From Bradyrhizobium sp. B124 (GTDB lineage: Bacteria > Pseudomonadota > Alphaproteobacteria > Rhizobiales > Xanthobacteraceae), in contig NZ_CP152413.1 in the NCBI RefSeq assembly GCF_038967635.1, positions 8,994,001-9,058,000 on the forward strand: a stretch of 64,000 nt of DNA, written 5' to 3'. Both the position numbers and the translations under genes were made by a program. The stretch's first letter is position 1, and each line of letters begins with the position of its first letter. The notes beneath the pieces are model-generated. The model was not told the DNA's origin, ran no database searches, and saw nothing but the letters and a program-made list of their open reading frames with translations. Of this stretch, positions 28,692-36,685 are shown piece after piece.

Positions 28692-28719
28692 GAGCGGCGC
28701 TATGAGCGCCGTCTATCTC

Positions 28720-28806
28720 CGTCATTGCGAACGCAGCGAAGCAATCCATCGCGCGGCATATGCTGGACGATGGATTGCTTCGTCGCTATCGCTCTTCGCA
28801 ATGACG
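28720..28806. repeat. Intergenic palindromic repeat (RPE type)
   Basis: Nested inverted repeat: outer arms CGTCATTGCGA (28720-28730) and TCGCAATGACG (28796-28806), inner arms GAAGCAATCCATCG (28738-28751) and CGATGGATTGCTTC (28768-28781). This CGTCATTGCGA..GCGAAGCAATCCA form is widely dispersed in Bradyrhizobium genomes. It lies immediately upstream of the cupin operator. Confidence 0.85.
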
Positions 28807-30447: not shown

Positions 30448-31377
30448 TTATCGCCGTGATGCGCTCAGGAACAGCGGCCGGAAGATATCCAGAAATCCGG
30501 TCGCGGCCGGCGTCAGTGGGCGGTTCTTCAGCCGCAGGATCCCGATCTTGCGAACCAGCGGCGGCGACACCAGCCGCTTGACGATCACGCCGCGCGGCGC
30601 CCGCGGCGGCACCGCCGAGGCCGGAACGATCGAGATGCCGACATTGGCTGCGACGAAATCGTAGAGCGTGCCGAACTGCTCGACGATGGTGCTGTGATTG
30701 AGCACGATGCCGCTTGCGGTCGCGGCGCTGTCGATCTGCTTGCGCAGGCCCGAGCCGGTCGGAAGCGAGACGAAGGTTTCGTTGCGCAGTTCGCGGAGGC
30801 TCAGCGTGCTGTTGTTTCGCAGCGGATGGCGCGAGGGCAGGATCGCGAAGCAGGACTCCTGCACCGCGTCGTCGCTGACCACCTCCTGGCCGAGTGCGGT
30901 GACGTTGCCGACGCCGAAGTCGGCGAGGCCGCTGCGCACATCTTCATAGACCTCGCTGCCGAGGCCCTCGCGCAGGTGGATTTCGACGCCGGGATGCGCC
31001 TTCCTGTATTTCAGCACGGCCTCCGGCACCACGTGGTGCGTGAGTGACAACAGGCAGGAGATGATCAGGCGTCCCTTGATCTGCTCGCCGAGTGCGCGGG
31101 CGTTGTCGACCTGGGCGCCGAGATCGGCGAGCAGGCGCTGCGTCGATGCCGTGAATTCGCGGCCCGGCGCGGTCAGGATGACGTTGCGCGTCGATCTGAG
31201 GAACAGCGAAACGCCGAGCTGCCGTTCGAGCTGCAGCACCAGACGGCTCACCGCCGACTGCGTCATGCCGAGGTCGGCGGCGGCCGCGGTGAAGCTGCCA
31301 TACACCGCGACCGAGTTGGCGGCGCGAAGATGTTTGAGGCTGACCTCGAACCGGCGTGGGCGTCGCTCGCGCATCAT
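30448..31377 (-). CDS. LysR family transcriptional regulator
   Basis: A 309-residue LysR protein. The HTH is SLKHLRAANSVAVYGSFTAA then AADLGMTQSAVSRLVLQLE (about residues 13-52), followed by the effector-binding domain. It is divergent from the two-CoA-transferase operon at 31488-36685 and is most likely its activator, as is usual for LysR genes in that arrangement. The inducer would be a pathway intermediate, not identified. Confidence 0.9.
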   Translation of the reverse strand: MMRERRPRRFEVSLKHLRAANSVAVYGSFTAAAADLGMTQSAVSRLVLQLERQLGVSLFLRSTRNVILTAPGREFTASTQRLLADLGAQVDNARALGEQIKGRLIISCLLSLTHHVVPEAVLKYRKAHPGVEIHLREGLGSEVYEDVRSGLADFGVGNVTALGQEVVSDDAVQESCFAILPSRHPLRNNSTLSLRELRNETFVSLPTGSGLRKQIDSAATASGIVLNHSTIVEQFGTLYDFVAANVGISIVPASAVPPRAPRGVIVKRLVSPPLVRKIGILRLKNRPLTPAATGFLDIFRPLFLSASRR

Positions 31378-31384
31378 TCATTCC

Positions 31385-31415
31385 ATTTTCGCATCAATAA
31401 TCCGGATCGGAAAAT
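31385..31415. promoter_or_regulatory. Possible LysR binding region
   Basis: ATTTTC (31385-31390) and GAAAAT (31410-31415) form an inverted repeat in an AT-rich stretch between the divergent LysR and CoA-transferase genes. TTGACC follows at 31418 and could be a -35 element for the operon. Weak evidence by itself. Confidence 0.35.
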
Positions 31416-31487
31416 ATTTGACCTATATGCCCGCCGCGTCAACGATGAAGACAGCCACAGAGCAGCAAGCGGGAAGGGAAATTGCGG

Positions 31488-32744
31488 ATGACGGCGAGCC
31501 CGACGATGACGAGGCAAGGCGCGCTGCACGGGGTCCGCGTTCTCGATCTGACACGGTTCTATTCAGGTCCGTTTGCGACCTTGATGCTGGCGGGCTTCGG
31601 CGCAGAGGTCATTCGCATCGACACCCCGGAGCAGGGCGATCCCACCATGACCGGGCCGCCGTTCCTCGGCAAGGACGGCGTCTCGCTCGACCGCAAGCAT
31701 GACAGCGATCTCGGTCTCGCCTATCTGAAGCGCTGCCGCGACAAGAAGTCGATCACGCTGAACATGCGCACGGCGGAGGGCATGGAGCTGTTCCATGCGC
31801 TGCTGCGCAAGTCGGACATCCTGGTCGAGAATCTGCGTCCCGGTGCGGCCGAGCGGCTCGGGATCGACTACGAGGCAAACCGCCAGGTCAACCCCGCGAT
31901 CGTGCATTGCGCGCTGACCGGCTACGGCTCGACCGGCGCGGACCGGCGACTCAAGGCGTACGATTTGATGATCCAGGCAGCATCCGGCCTGATGTCGATC
32001 ACCGGTGCGCCGGATGGCAGCCCCAGCAAGGCCGGCACCGCGCTCGCGGATGGCATCACGGGCGCCTTTGCCGTCTCCGGCATCCTCGCCGCGCTGACCG
32101 AGCAGCGCGTGTCGGGACGAGGCCAGTTCGTCGATGTCGCGATGGCTGACTGCCTGTTGTCGCTGGTGCTCGACGAGCCCTTGGATTGCTACCCGCAGAT
32201 GGGGATGGCGCCACGGCAGGGCAATCGCATCATGCGGTTCTCGCCGTTCAACACCTATGCCACGCGCGACGGTGCGATCGCGCTCGGCGCCGCCACGAAT
32301 GAGGACTGGCTGGCGCTGCTCGGTGTGATGGACCGGCTCGACCTCGCCGCGGACGCGAAGTTCATGAACACCGGCTGGCGCGTCGCCAACAACACGATCG
32401 TCGATGCGATCGTCAGCGAATGGACGCTGGGCCGCACCACGCTCGAGGCGATCGAGGCGCTCAATCGCGGCGATGTCGCCGCGAGCCAGATCCGCGACAT
32501 CGACGACATCCTCGCCTGGGAGCATCTCGGCGCGCGCGACATGCTGCAGCCGGTCGTGCATCCGACCGAGCCGCTGGAGCAGCGCGTCATTGGCGCCGGG
32601 TTTCCGATCAAGATGGGACGGACGCACAAGGGATACACCGCGCCGGCGCCGAAGCCCGGGCAGAACAATCAGGATATCTATGGCGGGCTGCTCGGCCTCT
32701 CCGGGCAGCGGATCGACGATCTGACGTCCAGGCGGATCATCTGA
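31488..32744 (+). CDS. CaiB/BaiF (type III) CoA-transferase, copy 1
   Basis: A 418-residue family III CoA-transferase that moves CoA between carboxylic acids through a covalent aspartyl intermediate. The catalytic aspartate is probably Asp159 in KAYDLMIQAASG; the N-terminal VLDLTRFYSGPFATLMLAGFGAEVIRID and DILVENLRPGAAERLG are family signatures. It is the first gene of a five-gene operon with an ABC receptor, a DsbA-like protein, a GST and a second CoA-transferase. ATG at 31488 is preferred, with AAGGGA upstream. Confidence 0.9.
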   Translation: MTASPTMTRQGALHGVRVLDLTRFYSGPFATLMLAGFGAEVIRIDTPEQGDPTMTGPPFLGKDGVSLDRKHDSDLGLAYLKRCRDKKSITLNMRTAEGMELFHALLRKSDILVENLRPGAAERLGIDYEANRQVNPAIVHCALTGYGSTGADRRLKAYDLMIQAASGLMSITGAPDGSPSKAGTALADGITGAFAVSGILAALTEQRVSGRGQFVDVAMADCLLSLVLDEPLDCYPQMGMAPRQGNRIMRFSPFNTYATRDGAIALGAATNEDWLALLGVMDRLDLAADAKFMNTGWRVANNTIVDAIVSEWTLGRTTLEAIEALNRGDVAASQIRDIDDILAWEHLGARDMLQPVVHPTEPLEQRVIGAGFPIKMGRTHKGYTAPAPKPGQNNQDIYGGLLGLSGQRIDDLTSRRII

Positions 32745-32798
32745 GAGCAAGAAGGCCGGCACATGCATGCCGGCCCAAGCGGGAGCGTCGAGATAGTC

Positions 32799-34022
32799 AT
32801 GGCGAAGAAACGAACACCCACAGCTGCAGCGATCGCGTTGCTGGTCGGCGGCGCGATGCTGACGCCGGTTCGGGCGGCGGATGTGCAGCCGGTCAGGATC
32901 GGCGTGCTTACCGATATGTCGGGGATGTACCGCGACATCATGGGGCCGGGCTCGGTGCTCGCTGCCAGGATGGCGGTCGAGGATTTCGGCGGCAAGGTGC
33001 TGGATCGTCCGATCGAGGTGATCTCCGGCGATCACCAGGCGAAAGCCGATGTCGGGGCGGCGATCGCCCGCAACTGGTTCGACAATGGCGGTGCCGACGT
33101 TGTCGTCGACGTCGCGCAATCCGCCGTGGCGCTCGCCGTTCAGGAGCTGGCGCGGACGCGCAACAAGATCGTCATCCACGGCGTGACCGGCAGTCCCGCA
33201 ATCACCCAGCAGGCCTGCGCGGTGACCGCATTCTCGTGGTCGCTCAACGCCTACGCGATTTCGGCGCCGCTGCCGAAGCCGCTGATCGAGCGCGGGCTCG
33301 ATACGTTCTTCTTTCTCTCGGCGGACTATTCCTTCGGCAAGGCGATGGAGGACGCTGCGGCGGGTGCGATCAAGGCGGCCGGAGGCAAGGTGCTGGGCTC
33401 GGTGCGCTTCCCGCAGAACAATCCCGACTTCAGCTCGTTCCTGCTGCAGGCGGTGGCGTCAAAGGCCAAGGTGATCTGGCTGATCTCGGCGGCGGAGGAC
33501 ACCACCAACGCCCTGAAGCAGGCCAAGGAGTTCGGCCTCGCCGAGGGCGGGCAGCACATCGTGGTGCCCCTGACCTACATCACCAATGTGCACGCGCTCG
33601 GCATTGCCAATGTGCAGGGCCTCACCTTTGCGACCCCGTTCTACTGGGACCGCACCGACAAGACGCGCGCGTGGTCGGAGCGCTTCTTCAGGCAGCACCA
33701 CGCAATGCCGACCATGGACCAGGCCGCGGTCTATTCGGGAACGCTGCACTATCTGCAGGCCGTCGCTGCCGCCAGGACCCTGGACGGCCTGAAGGTCGCC
33801 GACGAGATCCGGAAGCTGCCGGTCAACGACATGTATGTCGAGAACGGTTTTGTGCGCGCCGACGGCTGGCTGATGCATCCGTTCTACATGGCGAGCATCA
33901 AGGCCCCCGGCGAGGTCAAGAAGCCCTGGGACTACTACACCATCGAGAAGGTCATTCCGGCATCCGAGGCGGCGCAGCCGTTGTCGGAGAGCCAATGCCC
34001 GCTCGTCGCTCAATCGCAATGA
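32799..34022 (+). CDS. ABC transporter substrate-binding protein (aromatic/branched-chain type)
   Basis: A 407-residue periplasmic receptor. MAKKRTPTAAAIALLVGGAM then PVRAAD is a clear signal peptide, and VRIGVLTDMSGMYRDIMGPGS starts the binding fold. A longer start at 32763, which has a good AAGAAGG site, would place 12 polar residues before the signal, so 32799 is preferred but not certain. It lies within a catabolic operon without permease genes, so it probably delivers the operon's substrate to a shared transporter. Confidence 0.88.
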   Translation: MAKKRTPTAAAIALLVGGAMLTPVRAADVQPVRIGVLTDMSGMYRDIMGPGSVLAARMAVEDFGGKVLDRPIEVISGDHQAKADVGAAIARNWFDNGGADVVVDVAQSAVALAVQELARTRNKIVIHGVTGSPAITQQACAVTAFSWSLNAYAISAPLPKPLIERGLDTFFFLSADYSFGKAMEDAAAGAIKAAGGKVLGSVRFPQNNPDFSSFLLQAVASKAKVIWLISAAEDTTNALKQAKEFGLAEGGQHIVVPLTYITNVHALGIANVQGLTFATPFYWDRTDKTRAWSERFFRQHHAMPTMDQAAVYSGTLHYLQAVAAARTLDGLKVADEIRKLPVNDMYVENGFVRADGWLMHPFYMASIKAPGEVKKPWDYYTIEKVIPASEAAQPLSESQCPLVAQSQ

Positions 34023-34041
34023 CATCGGCAAAGGAGAGACA

Positions 34042-34659
34042 ATGTCCCGCGAAGTTCTCAAGATGTATTCGGACTACAAGAGCCCCTATGCCTGGCTGGC
34101 ATTCGATCCGGTGTTCGAGCTGGAAAAGAAGTTCGACATCAAGGTGCAGTGGCGGCCGTTCCAGCTCCGGATCAAGGGCTCCGGCCAGCGCAGCGTCTAT
34201 TCGGAATACAAGGTCAAGTATTCCTACATGGATGCCCGGCGGTCCGCGAACGAGCGCGGCGACAAGAAGATCATCCGCGGCCCGCTGAAGATATTCGACA
34301 CCGCCCCGGCGCTGATCGGCGGGCTGTTCGCGGAGAAGCAGGGGCGGCTGATCGAATACAGCCGCCTGGTCTACGAGCTGTTCTTCCGCCGCGAGCTCGC
34401 GGTCGACGAGGTCGATGCGGTGGAGCGCTTCATCGAGTCGCTCGGGATGTCCGGCGCTGAATTCCGCAGCTATTTCGAAGGTGACGGCCGGCGCGAATAT
34501 GAGGAGGCGCAGCAGGAGAGCCAGGGCGATCATATCTTCGGCGTGCCGATCTGCGTCTTTCGCGGCGAGCAGTTCTGGGGCAACGACCGTGTGCCGATGC
34601 TCGAGCGGCGGCTGCAGGAGGCCGGACTGTCGCTGTCGCGCGAAAAGCAGCTGGCCTGA
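34042..34659 (+). CDS. DsbA-family thioredoxin-fold protein, 2-hydroxychromene-2-carboxylate isomerase-like
   Basis: A 205-residue cytoplasmic protein. The N-terminal active-site region YSDYKSPYAWLA has Ser14 in place of the DsbA cysteines, as in kappa-class GST and the 2-hydroxychromene-2-carboxylate isomerase family, and the C-terminal GVPICVFRGEQFWGNDRVPML is the usual cis-proline region (GVP). Such enzymes use glutathione for isomerisation or conjugation. AAAGGAGAGACA precedes the ATG. With the GST gene downstream it implies a glutathione-dependent step in this pathway. Confidence 0.85.
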   Translation: MSREVLKMYSDYKSPYAWLAFDPVFELEKKFDIKVQWRPFQLRIKGSGQRSVYSEYKVKYSYMDARRSANERGDKKIIRGPLKIFDTAPALIGGLFAEKQGRLIEYSRLVYELFFRRELAVDEVDAVERFIESLGMSGAEFRSYFEGDGRREYEEAQQESQGDHIFGVPICVFRGEQFWGNDRVPMLERRLQEAGLSLSREKQLA

Positions 34660-34677
34660 GCTGTGCCGGAGGCTCCG

Positions 34678-35412
34678 ATGATCGATCTTCATTTCGCGCC
34701 GACGCCGAATGGCTGGAAGGTCTCGATCATGCTCGAGGAATGCGAGCTGCCGTACACCGTCGTGCCGGTCAACATCACGCGCGGCGACCAGTTCAAGCCC
34801 GAATTCCGCAAGCTCAATCCCAATGGGCGGATCCCTGTCATCGTCGACAGGGACCCGCCCGGCGGAGGCGAGCCGCTGACGATCTTCGAGTCGGGAGCGA
34901 TCTTGCTTTACCTCGCGGAGAAGACCGGCAGGTTCGCTCCGCGTGATCTGCATGGCCGCACCCGCGTGCAGCAATGGCTGATGTGGCAGATGAGCGCGCT
35001 CGGGCCGATGCTGGGTCAGAACGGGCACTTCTCGCTCTATGCGCCGAGCAGGATTCCCTATGCGGTCGAGCGCTATGGCAACGAGGCGCGCCGTCTCTAC
35101 GGCGTGCTCAACGATCGGCTGGGCAAGAGCAGCCACGTGGCGGGCGACGACTATTCGATCGCCGACATCGGCTGCTTTCCATGGGTGATGACTCACAAGG
35201 CACAGGGCTTCACGCTCGACGATGTCCCGCACGTCAGGCGCTGGTTCGCCGAGCTTCGTGGACGGCCGCTGCTCCAGAAGGGGCTGGCGGTCGGGCGGCG
35301 CGCGGTGCGCAAGACGCTCGACGCGCAGGCCCGCAGCAACCTGTTTGGAACGAGGCCGGCGGGCGGAAACGCGCCCGCCGAAACTCTTCAGTCACAACAA
35401 CTGGACAATTGA
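34678..35412 (+). CDS. Glutathione S-transferase (YfcG/Nu-like)
   Basis: A 244-residue GST. The thioredoxin-like domain starts IDLHFAPTPNGWKVSIMLEE, where Asn in TPNGWK is the catalytic-type residue of the YfcG/YghU (Nu) group, and it contains NPNGRIPVIVD and the glutathione-binding IFESGAILLYLAEK. The C-terminal helical domain has VAGDDYSIADIGCFPWV. ATG at 34678 is preferred over GTG at 34663 because CGGAGG lies 6 bases upstream. It overlaps nothing and ends 1 bp before the next gene. Confidence 0.88.
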   Translation: MIDLHFAPTPNGWKVSIMLEECELPYTVVPVNITRGDQFKPEFRKLNPNGRIPVIVDRDPPGGGEPLTIFESGAILLYLAEKTGRFAPRDLHGRTRVQQWLMWQMSALGPMLGQNGHFSLYAPSRIPYAVERYGNEARRLYGVLNDRLGKSSHVAGDDYSIADIGCFPWVMTHKAQGFTLDDVPHVRRWFAELRGRPLLQKGLAVGRRAVRKTLDAQARSNLFGTRPAGGNAPAETLQSQQLDN

Positions 35413-35413
35413 G

Positions 35414-36685
35414 ATGACCCTGCCTCCGAAAATGCTGACCGGTTATCGCGTGCTCGATATCACCCAGTTCGTCGCAGGCCCGACCTGCACGCGTCTGCTG
35501 GCCGAAGCCGGCGCCGACGTGATCAAGATCGAGCTCGCGCCGTTCGGCGACCGGTCGCGCTTCCAGGGCCTGAAGCCGCGGGATCCCGCGTACAAGAACA
35601 CCTCGCAGAGCACGTATTTCTTCCAGCAGAACCATTCGAAGCGCAGCCTCGCGCTCGATTTCAAGCATGAGAAGAGCCGCCAGATCCTGACCCGGCTCGC
35701 CGCCAAGGCCGACGTTCTGGTGGAGAATTTTACGCCCGGCGTGATGGAGCGCGCCGGACTTGGTTATGAGACGCTCAGGAAAATCAATCCGCGGCTGATC
35801 ATGTGCTCGATCTCTTTCGCGGGGCAGACCGGACCGCTGAGCGATAAGCCCGGCTTCGACTATATCGCCCAGGCCTTCGCTGGCATCACCGGCGTGATCG
35901 GCGATCCCAATGGGAAGCCGGCGCAAGTGCCGGTGGCGATCGGGGACGCCTCGACCGGCGTTGCCGCAGCGATGGCCATAGGCTTTGCGCTGCTGCACCG
36001 CGAGCGGACCGGAGAGGGACAGTTCATCGAATCGACGCTGCTGGACACCTACTTTCACATGCACGAGGCCAACGTGCCGAAGGTCTCGCTGCGCGGGGAT
36101 AGCTTCGTGCCGCAGCGGGAGGGCTCGCTGCATCCGAATGGCGGTCCAGTCGGGGTGTTCGATTGCGGCCGAGGTGAGTTTCTCGTGATCTGCGCGCTGG
36201 CGCATCAATGGCCGCAAATGGTTCGCGCGCTGGGGCGGCCGGAGCTCGAGAAGGATCCGCGGTTCGAGTCCGCGCGCGCCCGTGCCGACAACAGGGTGCT
36301 GGTGGGGGAGATCGTCGAAGCCTGGCTCAAGACGTTTCCGTCGCGCGATGCGGCGATCGCCGCGCTGGAGCAGGAGCGGATACCCTGCGCGCCGGTGCTG
36401 ACACTGAATGACGCCATGGCCCAGCCGCATCTGATCGAGCGCGGTACGGTCCGCCATGTCAGCGATCCCCGGATCGGCCAATTTGCGATCCCGGGCGTGC
36501 CGATGCGCTTCTCGGAATGGCCGCAGCGCACCGAGCTGAGGGCCGACCTGCTCGGTGAACACAATGAGGAGATCCTCGGCGAACTCGGGCTGTCCGGGCA
36601 GGAGATCGACCAGCTCTATGCCGAGAAAGTGCTGGTGCAGGACAGGGAGCTGCGGGCCGGCAAGCCGCTCAGGCAGGCGAGCTGA
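35414..36685 (+). CDS. CaiB/BaiF (type III) CoA-transferase, copy 2
   Basis: A 423-residue CoA-transferase of the same family as the gene at 31488 but clearly diverged from it. VLDITQFVAGPTCTRLLAEAGADVIKIE and DVLVENFTPGVMERAG are the family signatures, and Asp149 in GFDYIAQAFAG is the probable nucleophile. It starts one base after the GST stop and ends the operon, 26 bp from the convergent cbtA. Two different CoA-transferases in one operon suggest CoA entry and CoA recycling steps, or a heteromeric enzyme. Confidence 0.9.
   Translation: MTLPPKMLTGYRVLDITQFVAGPTCTRLLAEAGADVIKIELAPFGDRSRFQGLKPRDPAYKNTSQSTYFFQQNHSKRSLALDFKHEKSRQILTRLAAKADVLVENFTPGVMERAGLGYETLRKINPRLIMCSISFAGQTGPLSDKPGFDYIAQAFAGITGVIGDPNGKPAQVPVAIGDASTGVAAAMAIGFALLHRERTGEGQFIESTLLDTYFHMHEANVPKVSLRGDSFVPQREGSLHPNGGPVGVFDCGRGEFLVICALAHQWPQMVRALGRPELEKDPRFESARARADNRVLVGEIVEAWLKTFPSRDAAIAALEQERIPCAPVLTLNDAMAQPHLIERGTVRHVSDPRIGQFAIPGVPMRFSEWPQRTELRADLLGEHNEEILGELGLSGQEIDQLYAEKVLVQDRELRAGKPLRQAS

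Follow-up and report, generated by a model that had tools for sequence, protein, structure and literature searches.

A 64,000-nucleotide stretch of the Bradyrhizobium sp. B124 genome (positions 8,994,001–9,058,000 of a single contig of 9.17 Mb, whose nearest named relatives are Bradyrhizobium; hereafter the window) carries a recurring, uncharacterised soil-bacterial operon that is present in several genera and probably serves acid degradation. At its heart lie a 2-hydroxychromene-2-carboxylate (HCCA)-isomerase-like protein, here called Kappa, and one class III coenzyme A (CoA)-transferase of the CaiB type, CaiB2. In the window these two are accompanied by a second such transferase (CaiB1), a periplasmic ATP-binding cassette (ABC)-type substrate-binding protein, a YfcG/Nu (Ure2pB)-type glutathione S-transferase (GST; here Nu) and a divergent LysR-family regulator. 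Comparison with relatives identifies Kappa and CaiB2 as the core, with Nu, CaiB1 and the transporter being accessory or exchangeable.

The Kappa–CaiB2 core recurs outside Bradyrhizobium

Thirteen loci outside Bradyrhizobium encode a Kappa of 50–75% identity (L009–L019, L042 and L067). In 12 of them CaiB2 adjoins Kappa, or only Nu intervenes; in L012 it lies upstream of Kappa instead of downstream. The CaiB2 gene of L015, frameshifted in a metagenome-assembled genome, was counted as present, and that of L067 is cut by the contig end. The CaiB2 relatives next to Kappa show 56–68% identity, and the next-best relatives in the same genomes reach no more than 40%. The thirteenth locus, L018 on a deltaproteobacterial contig, has Kappa (50%) approximately 10 bases behind two acyl-CoA dehydrogenase genes, and no CaiB2 match above 34% was found in that genome.

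The remaining members are less constant. Nu sits between Kappa and CaiB2 in four of the 12 Kappa–CaiB2 loci (L009, L011, L014 and L016); the examined stretch of the other eight showed no Nu. CaiB1 and a divergent LysR gene stand alongside in four loci (L009, L011, L013 and L019), and CaiB1, sought across whole genomes at E 1e-90, turned up in the same four of 13 genomes, several of the 13 being incomplete. With a threshold of E 1e-12, no counterpart of the window's binding protein was found in any of the 13 loci, nor in G294 or the Bradyrhizobium genome G1191.

G294 is an informative REARRANGEMENT: it encodes a CaiB2 of 62% identity but no Kappa at E 1e-45. Divergent from its CaiB2 gene (locus L070) are genes for a Nu GST of 49% identity, a TctC receptor and another protein of the DSBA family, only 22% identical to Kappa, while a LysR-type gene (32% to that of the window) and CaiB1 (53%) lie on the other side. 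The same functions are thus gathered there around an enzyme that takes the place of Kappa without being its ortholog.

The gene order is kept within Bradyrhizobium

The search for relatives returned 20 loci, eight of them from named Bradyrhizobium; one (L020, 24%) was set aside, and three more Bradyrhizobium loci (G1241, G1309 and G1191) were added. The six-gene order is kept in 10 of these 11 other Bradyrhizobium loci, namely all eight from the first search together with G1241 and G1309, and the LysR relative is divergent from CaiB1 in all 11. The remaining locus, G1191, has LysR, CaiB1, Kappa and CaiB2 only; the binding protein and Nu were unmatched across 18 kb. The original prediction, made from the window's letters alone, had named an order unique to this strain, together with a lack of co-expression, as evidence against it. 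The order proved not to be unique, and its recurrence within the genus, with that of the Kappa–CaiB2 neighbourhood elsewhere, rules out a chance neighbourhood.

Of 265 Bradyrhizobium genomes, 14, counting the one that holds the window, have a Kappa at 86% identity or above (G1322, G1237 and G1184 were left out of the gene-order comparison among these 14). Any Kappa match at E 1e-35 was found in 132 of the 265, mostly a 36–42% paralog, and relatives at approximately 40% were excluded from the ortholog counts. At E 1e-45, Kappa was found in two of 397 genomes in an order-level search (one being the window's own) and in two of 385 in a class-level search (the window's own and a merely 42% relative). 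In a phylum sample searched at E 1e-35, nine of 398 genomes matched, eight of these holding only 37–41% relatives of Kappa, and no plasmid relative of Kappa was found at E 1e-20. The operon is real, yet patchily distributed.

All six genes are under purifying selection. Ratios of non-synonymous to synonymous substitution rates (dN/dS), calculated pairwise against the window for the Bradyrhizobium loci (11, or 10 for the binding protein and Nu), are well below 1 throughout: 0.037–0.122 for CaiB2, 0–0.197 for Kappa, 0.083–0.215 for CaiB1 and 0.018–0.251 for LysR (n = 11 each), and 0.051–0.206 for the binding protein and 0.168–0.236 for Nu (n = 10 each). CaiB2 has the lowest value of the six in seven of 11 loci (the exceptions being L001–L004) and Nu the highest in seven of 10 (the exceptions being L008, L048 and L049). 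Decay of the Nu gene was considered and ruled out by this range of dN/dS; the sole stop, in L049, falls near the C-terminal end of an otherwise open frame.

Kappa resembles HCCA isomerases rather than kappa-class GSTs

Among solved structures, the best matches to Kappa by both sequence and fold are HCCA isomerases and not kappa GSTs, and Foldseek gave the same top matches. Kappa has a DsbA-type fold with the HCCA-isomerase topology. This refines the earlier description of the protein as kappa-GST/HCCA-isomerase-like. Residues S14, P169, G180, D182 and R183 are invariant in 24 aligned rows and align to the same residues of HCCA isomerases. The active-site Ser, the cis-Pro and the GxDR motif, to which glutathione binding is ascribed, are thus conserved in Kappa, in line with its predicted glutathione dependence. 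Oxidoreductases of the DsbA-type fold use a CxxC pair; the active-site stretch of Kappa has Ser and no such pair.

The fold, the active-site Ser, the cis-Pro and the GxDR motif are all shared with NahD, the 2-hydroxychromene-2-carboxylate isomerase. However, identity to NahD is 22–24%, a level at which the reaction is not carried over, and the operon lacks naphthalene genes and ties Kappa instead to CoA enzymes. In a published Sagittula cluster, NahD, a GST and an acyl-CoA transferase occur among naphthalene genes (PMC11705938).

CaiB1 and CaiB2 are complete class III CoA-transferases

Both CaiB1 and CaiB2 cover the PF02515 profile from 1 to 366 of 366. D188 of CaiB1 and D178 of CaiB2 align with the Asp of relatives in the PDB, the catalytic position in class III CoA-transferases. 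For IsoG of isoprene degradation, D169 is mentioned in PMC10057887. Formyl-CoA transferase, SUGCT and mesaconate transferase likewise share the whole-length PF02515 match and the Asp position, but neither protein of the window reaches an NCBIfam equivalog cut-off, the best scores being 247 of 750 bits for CaiB1 and 277 of 442 for CaiB2. The CoA donor and acceptor can therefore not be named for either protein. Recent duplication as the origin of the pair is ruled out by their mutual identity of 28%.

The genome as a whole has 33 PF02515 match rows and four Kappa-family matches at E 1e-3. Among the former are two copies, 9.8 kb apart (7,913,376–7,915,592 and 7,923,191–7,925,407), of an 852-residue frame with two CaiB domains; their scores are equal or nearly equal, and they are perhaps the product of a recent duplication.

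Nu is a YfcG-family protein in a catabolic operon

Residues 1–203 of the 244 of Nu match a YfcG structure at E 9.7e-71. With Escherichia coli YfcG and the Nu-class (Ure2pB) GSTs it has in common a whole-length match and the TPNG active-site stretch. In contrast to E. coli YfcG, it scores 244.5 bits against the cut-off of 332 for NCBIfam NF010579 (YfcG), which supports membership of the family but not assignment as the YfcG equivalog, and it is located in a catabolic operon. The proposal that the locus encodes two glutathione-type enzymes holds as to their presence. An equal partnership between them does not, given the loci outside the genus, and G1191, in which Nu was not seen.

At 2.12 Mb in the same genome (L028, 6447–7863), a second YfcG-type GST, 63% identical to Nu, lies beside HCCA-isomerase-type and quinone-oxidoreductase-like genes; the pairing of Nu and HCCA-type proteins thus recurs there without CoA-transferases.

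The operon compared with the isoprene and styrene clusters

The isoGHIJ genes of Rhodococcus AD45 and Variovorax WS11, like the styGHIJ genes for styrene in Gordonia, have in common with the operon a CaiB-type CoA-transferase and a YfcG/Ure2p-type GST, with β-oxidation proposed downstream. The original prediction had seen no known pathway into which the gene set fitted, but this pair of enzyme families is that of IsoG/IsoJ and StyG/StyJ; the joining of CoA and glutathione-type enzymes in one recurring unit is confirmed, while the chemistry itself has these precedents. The operon differs from the isoprene and styrene clusters in having no monooxygenase, no short-chain dehydrogenase/reductase (SDR; IsoH/StyH) and no conjugating GST (IsoI/StyI); in their stead it has Kappa, a further CaiB and the periplasmic binding protein.

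Reference Sty proteins were taken from the Gordonia rubripertincta CWB2 plasmid, where StyG and StyH are tentative assignments made by position. StyI and StyJ are named by protein accessions in PMC8552685. Identity to StyG is 34% for CaiB2 and 27% for CaiB1, and Nu is 41% identical to StyJ over 245 columns. As a control, StyG was compared with an unlinked CaiB from the window's genome, giving 34% identity, and StyJ with the YfcG-type GST of L028, likewise unlinked, giving 45%; the similarity is not specific, because unlinked relatives equal or exceed it. Kappa and the binding protein had no match to Gordonia proteins at E 0.01, and StyI, StyH and the aldehyde dehydrogenase were unmatched at the same threshold by the five operon proteins compared. 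A search for plasmid relatives of StyI at E 1e-25 returned only the Gordonia record itself. In the GST tree StyJ forms a long, unplaced branch, with eight of 17 inner branches open (the L049 row runs a few residues past its stop), and Nu is at most a candidate ortholog of StyJ. Taken together, the operon appears to share with the isoprene and styrene clusters the idea of a CoA-transferase combined with a Ure2p-type GST, and it is filed beside them and not as a member; descent from them is not supported.

A plasmid of Sphingobium sp. TomTYG65 also brings CoA activation, a YfcG-type GST (59%) and an HCCA-isomerase-type gene into one run, together with a cytochrome P450 and dehydrogenases. CoA ligases are present there and transferases here, however, and the YfcG and HCCA families are represented by different members. 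Among the listed titles and starts of abstracts of the open-licence literature, no paper on the gene set of the window was found, although the words CaiB and glutathione S-transferase both occur in PMC5789663.

Attached genes point to an organic acid

Different relatives have different genes attached. For transport, the Bradyrhizobium form has the ABC-type binding protein. DctPQM-like genes lie inside the operon in Methylobacterium L011 (DctP identified by NCBIfam, Q and M by position and sequence), TctC receptors are encoded in L009, L015 and L070 (those of L009 and L070 being 52% identical), and a sodium:solute symporter gene lies nearby in L042. The ABC, tripartite ATP-independent periplasmic (TRAP) and TctC types seen near relatives commonly serve the uptake of small organic acids. 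CaiB2 is followed in Enterovirga L009 by two acyl-CoA dehydrogenases, an enoyl-CoA hydratase and TctC, in L017 by an enoyl-CoA hydratase, and in L011, where the contig ends, by the first part of an acyl-CoA dehydrogenase gene. The second Enterovirga dehydrogenase has its nearest relative in the window's genome (50%) 2.9 Mb away, beside a 41% relative of the first. These attachments, each seen in one locus only, point to an organic acid whose breakdown would end in β-oxidation.

Itaconate or mesaconate, glutarate, aromatic acids and lignin dimers were considered as substrates, and the evidence favours none over the others. Itaconate/mesaconate came into consideration because a 41% Kappa paralog, whose type is widespread among Bradyrhizobium genomes, lies 9–16 kb from RipC/CitE-, RipB/MaoC-, enoyl-CoA hydratase- and CaiB-type genes, and because PrpF- and 3-hydroxyisobutyrate-dehydrogenase-type genes occur in G1241. 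In the latter locus (L048, 11384–13591) a 3-hydroxyisobutyrate-dehydrogenase-type gene and a PrpF/4-oxalomesaconate-tautomerase-type gene stand between CaiB2 and CbtA, a place where the window has neither.

The paralog is found at 2.640–2.672 Mb of the window's own genome (L026, 1–753, and L025), after a Baeyer–Villiger monooxygenase (BVMO)-like gene; nearby are CoA-ligase, SDR, ABC-transporter, CaiB, enoyl-CoA hydratase, MaoC (RipB-like) and CitE (RipC-like) genes. A 67% relative of it lies near CaiB and TRAP-like genes in G255 (L045). Across six examined loci of the paralogous clade (L043–L047 and L051), a CaiB gene was recognised in L045 only.

A model for the operon and its alternatives

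The explanation preferred here, tentatively and at somewhat less than even confidence, is that the operon, under LysR control, serves the breakdown of an organic acid taken up from outside and combines glutathione-dependent isomerisation with CoA transfer and β-oxidation. In the steps that we infer, the binding protein (or, elsewhere, a TRAP or TctC receptor) would capture the acid, and CaiB2, with CaiB1 where present, would transfer CoA to it or to an intermediate related to it. Either before or after this transfer, Kappa would act on an intermediate that is unsaturated or ring-opened and isomerise it, using glutathione as a catalyst, and the YfcG/Nu GST would clear glutathione adducts as glutathione disulfide when these form. 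The product would then enter β-oxidation through an acyl-CoA dehydrogenase and an enoyl-CoA hydratase, whose genes are attached to the operon in some relatives and presumably lie elsewhere in this genome. This account is preferred because of the Kappa–CaiB2 association in 12 of 13 loci, the dehydrogenases of L018, the attachments in L009, L017 and L011, the G294 arrangement, the HCCA-isomerase matches of Kappa and the published proposals for IsoG, IsoJ and StyJ. The prediction had spoken of glutathione-dependent isomerisation or ether/thioether cleavage: isomerisation may still apply, whereas cleavage of lignin-dimer ethers gained no support, the operon having no third GST and the transporters near relatives being of the small-acid type.

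A route like that of isoprene and styrene would assign the glutathione step differently: glutathione would be covalently attached to the acid, whether by Kappa or without an enzyme, a CaiB protein would make the CoA thioester of this adduct, and the YfcG/Nu GST would remove glutathione as the disulfide. Parts of the literature accord with such a scheme. IsoG is predicted to convert a glutathionyl acid to its CoA thioester, and IsoJ to take the glutathione off (PMC10057887 and PMC9804861); StyJ is called Ure2p-like, and deglutathionylation is considered plausible for it (PMC8552685); and a Nu-class GST is named as a glutathione lyase in lignin dimer breakdown (PMC5892560). The exact roles of IsoG and IsoJ in isoprene degradation are described as uncertain in PMC10057887. 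The identities of both CaiB proteins to StyG and of Nu to StyJ also lean this way, but their non-specificity, the missing StyI/IsoI, StyH/IsoH and monooxygenase and the failure of Kappa to match any Gordonia protein all tell against it. Nu is, moreover, optional and usually the least constrained member, and StyJ is unplaced in the tree. Such a route is rated as rather unlikely; in its favour, IsoJ and StyJ, for which deglutathionylation is proposed, are both assigned to the Ure2p/YfcG type.

The optional nature of Nu would suit a different idea, in which the glutathione-type proteins only assist, in redox or detoxification roles, by reducing disulfides or scavenging reactive enoyl-CoA beside an ordinary CoA-transferase pathway that has no glutathione step proper. 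Indeed, the nearest model for Nu is a glutathione-dependent disulfide oxidoreductase, and the fold of Kappa includes disulfide oxidoreductases. Across genera, however, no member is tied to CaiB2 as closely as Kappa, which has Ser where such oxidoreductases carry a CxxC pair; a helper role is judged unlikely. Least probable of all is that CaiB1 and CaiB2 form a single heteromeric CoA-transferase like BbsEF, with Kappa acting on its substrate or product. The operon does have two CaiB genes, and both products match the benzylsuccinate CoA-transferase subunits of PDB entry 9fn0, but other CaiB structures score higher for both, and both proteins keep the catalytic-Asp position. Obligate pairing is further weakened by the scarcity of CaiB1 in the 13 genomes searched, several of them incomplete.

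A bolder version of the preferred model, which we regard as unlikely, would make Kappa a glutathione-dependent enzyme of CoA-thioester catabolism, for example a new kind of enoyl- or acyl-CoA isomerase. An acid-degradation route not yet described would then be built on Kappa and CaiB2, with Nu, a second CaiB and varied transporters added in different bacteria. The operon provides a separate case of a CoA-transferase with a glutathione-type enzyme in named Bradyrhizobium strains, with G1191 as a natural version that has neither the GST nor the binding protein. Whether glutathione acts on CoA thioesters could therefore be tested directly. The operon could also give a bacterial member of the kappa/HCCA family a physiological role outside naphthalene degradation.

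Organisation of the window locus

The gene set, families and coordinates originally proposed, with the divergent LysR gene and close spacing, are all borne out by Pfam and NCBIfam matches (Table 1) and by the intergenic gaps. LysR and CaiB1 are 110 bases apart, and the gaps along the five co-directional genes are 54, 19, 18 and 1 bases. The ATG starts at 31488, 32799 and 34678 were chosen by reading the upstream sequence and give frames shorter than the longest open reading frames. By eye, the binding protein has a signal-peptide-like N terminus; the operon has no permease gene to accompany it.

Table 1. Features of the operon, in window coordinates.
Feature	Position	Strand	Remarks
LysR-family regulator	30448–31377	-	Pfam HTH_1 and LysR_substrate; divergent from CaiB1
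Divergent promoter/operator region	31378–31487	.	Between LysR and CaiB1
CaiB1, class III CoA-transferase	31488–32744	+	PF02515, E 6.7e-101; Asp188 at catalytic-Asp position
Periplasmic ABC-type substrate-binding protein	32799–34022	+	PF13458, E 5.5e-90
Kappa, HCCA-isomerase-like, DsbA/kappa-GST fold family	34042–34659	+	Pfam DSBA, E 1.4e-22; glutathione dependence predicted
YfcG/Nu (Ure2pB)-type GST, accessory member	34678–35412	+	Pfam GST_N/GST_C; NCBIfam NF010579, E 7.5e-73
CaiB2, class III CoA-transferase, core partner of Kappa	35414–36685	+	PF02515, E 4.1e-110; Asp178 at catalytic-Asp position

In an alignment of 12 rows, including the window, the first half of the LysR–CaiB1 intergenic region (approximately 31375–31430) is strongly conserved. 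The ATC-N9-GAT pattern taken for a LysR site occurs 34 times in the window against 26.3 expected, a count reached by five of 100 shuffles and so not clearly above chance.

Two minor features were noted. The gap between CaiB1 and the binding protein contains a GC-rich inverted repeat, seen by eye, with 8-base arms and a 6-base loop (32754–32775), possibly an RNA hairpin that tunes expression. Between BVMO-like and cupin genes, at approximately 28715–28805, one frame spells RHCERSEAI, a phrase characteristic of a palindromic repeat that lies between genes in alphaproteobacteria.

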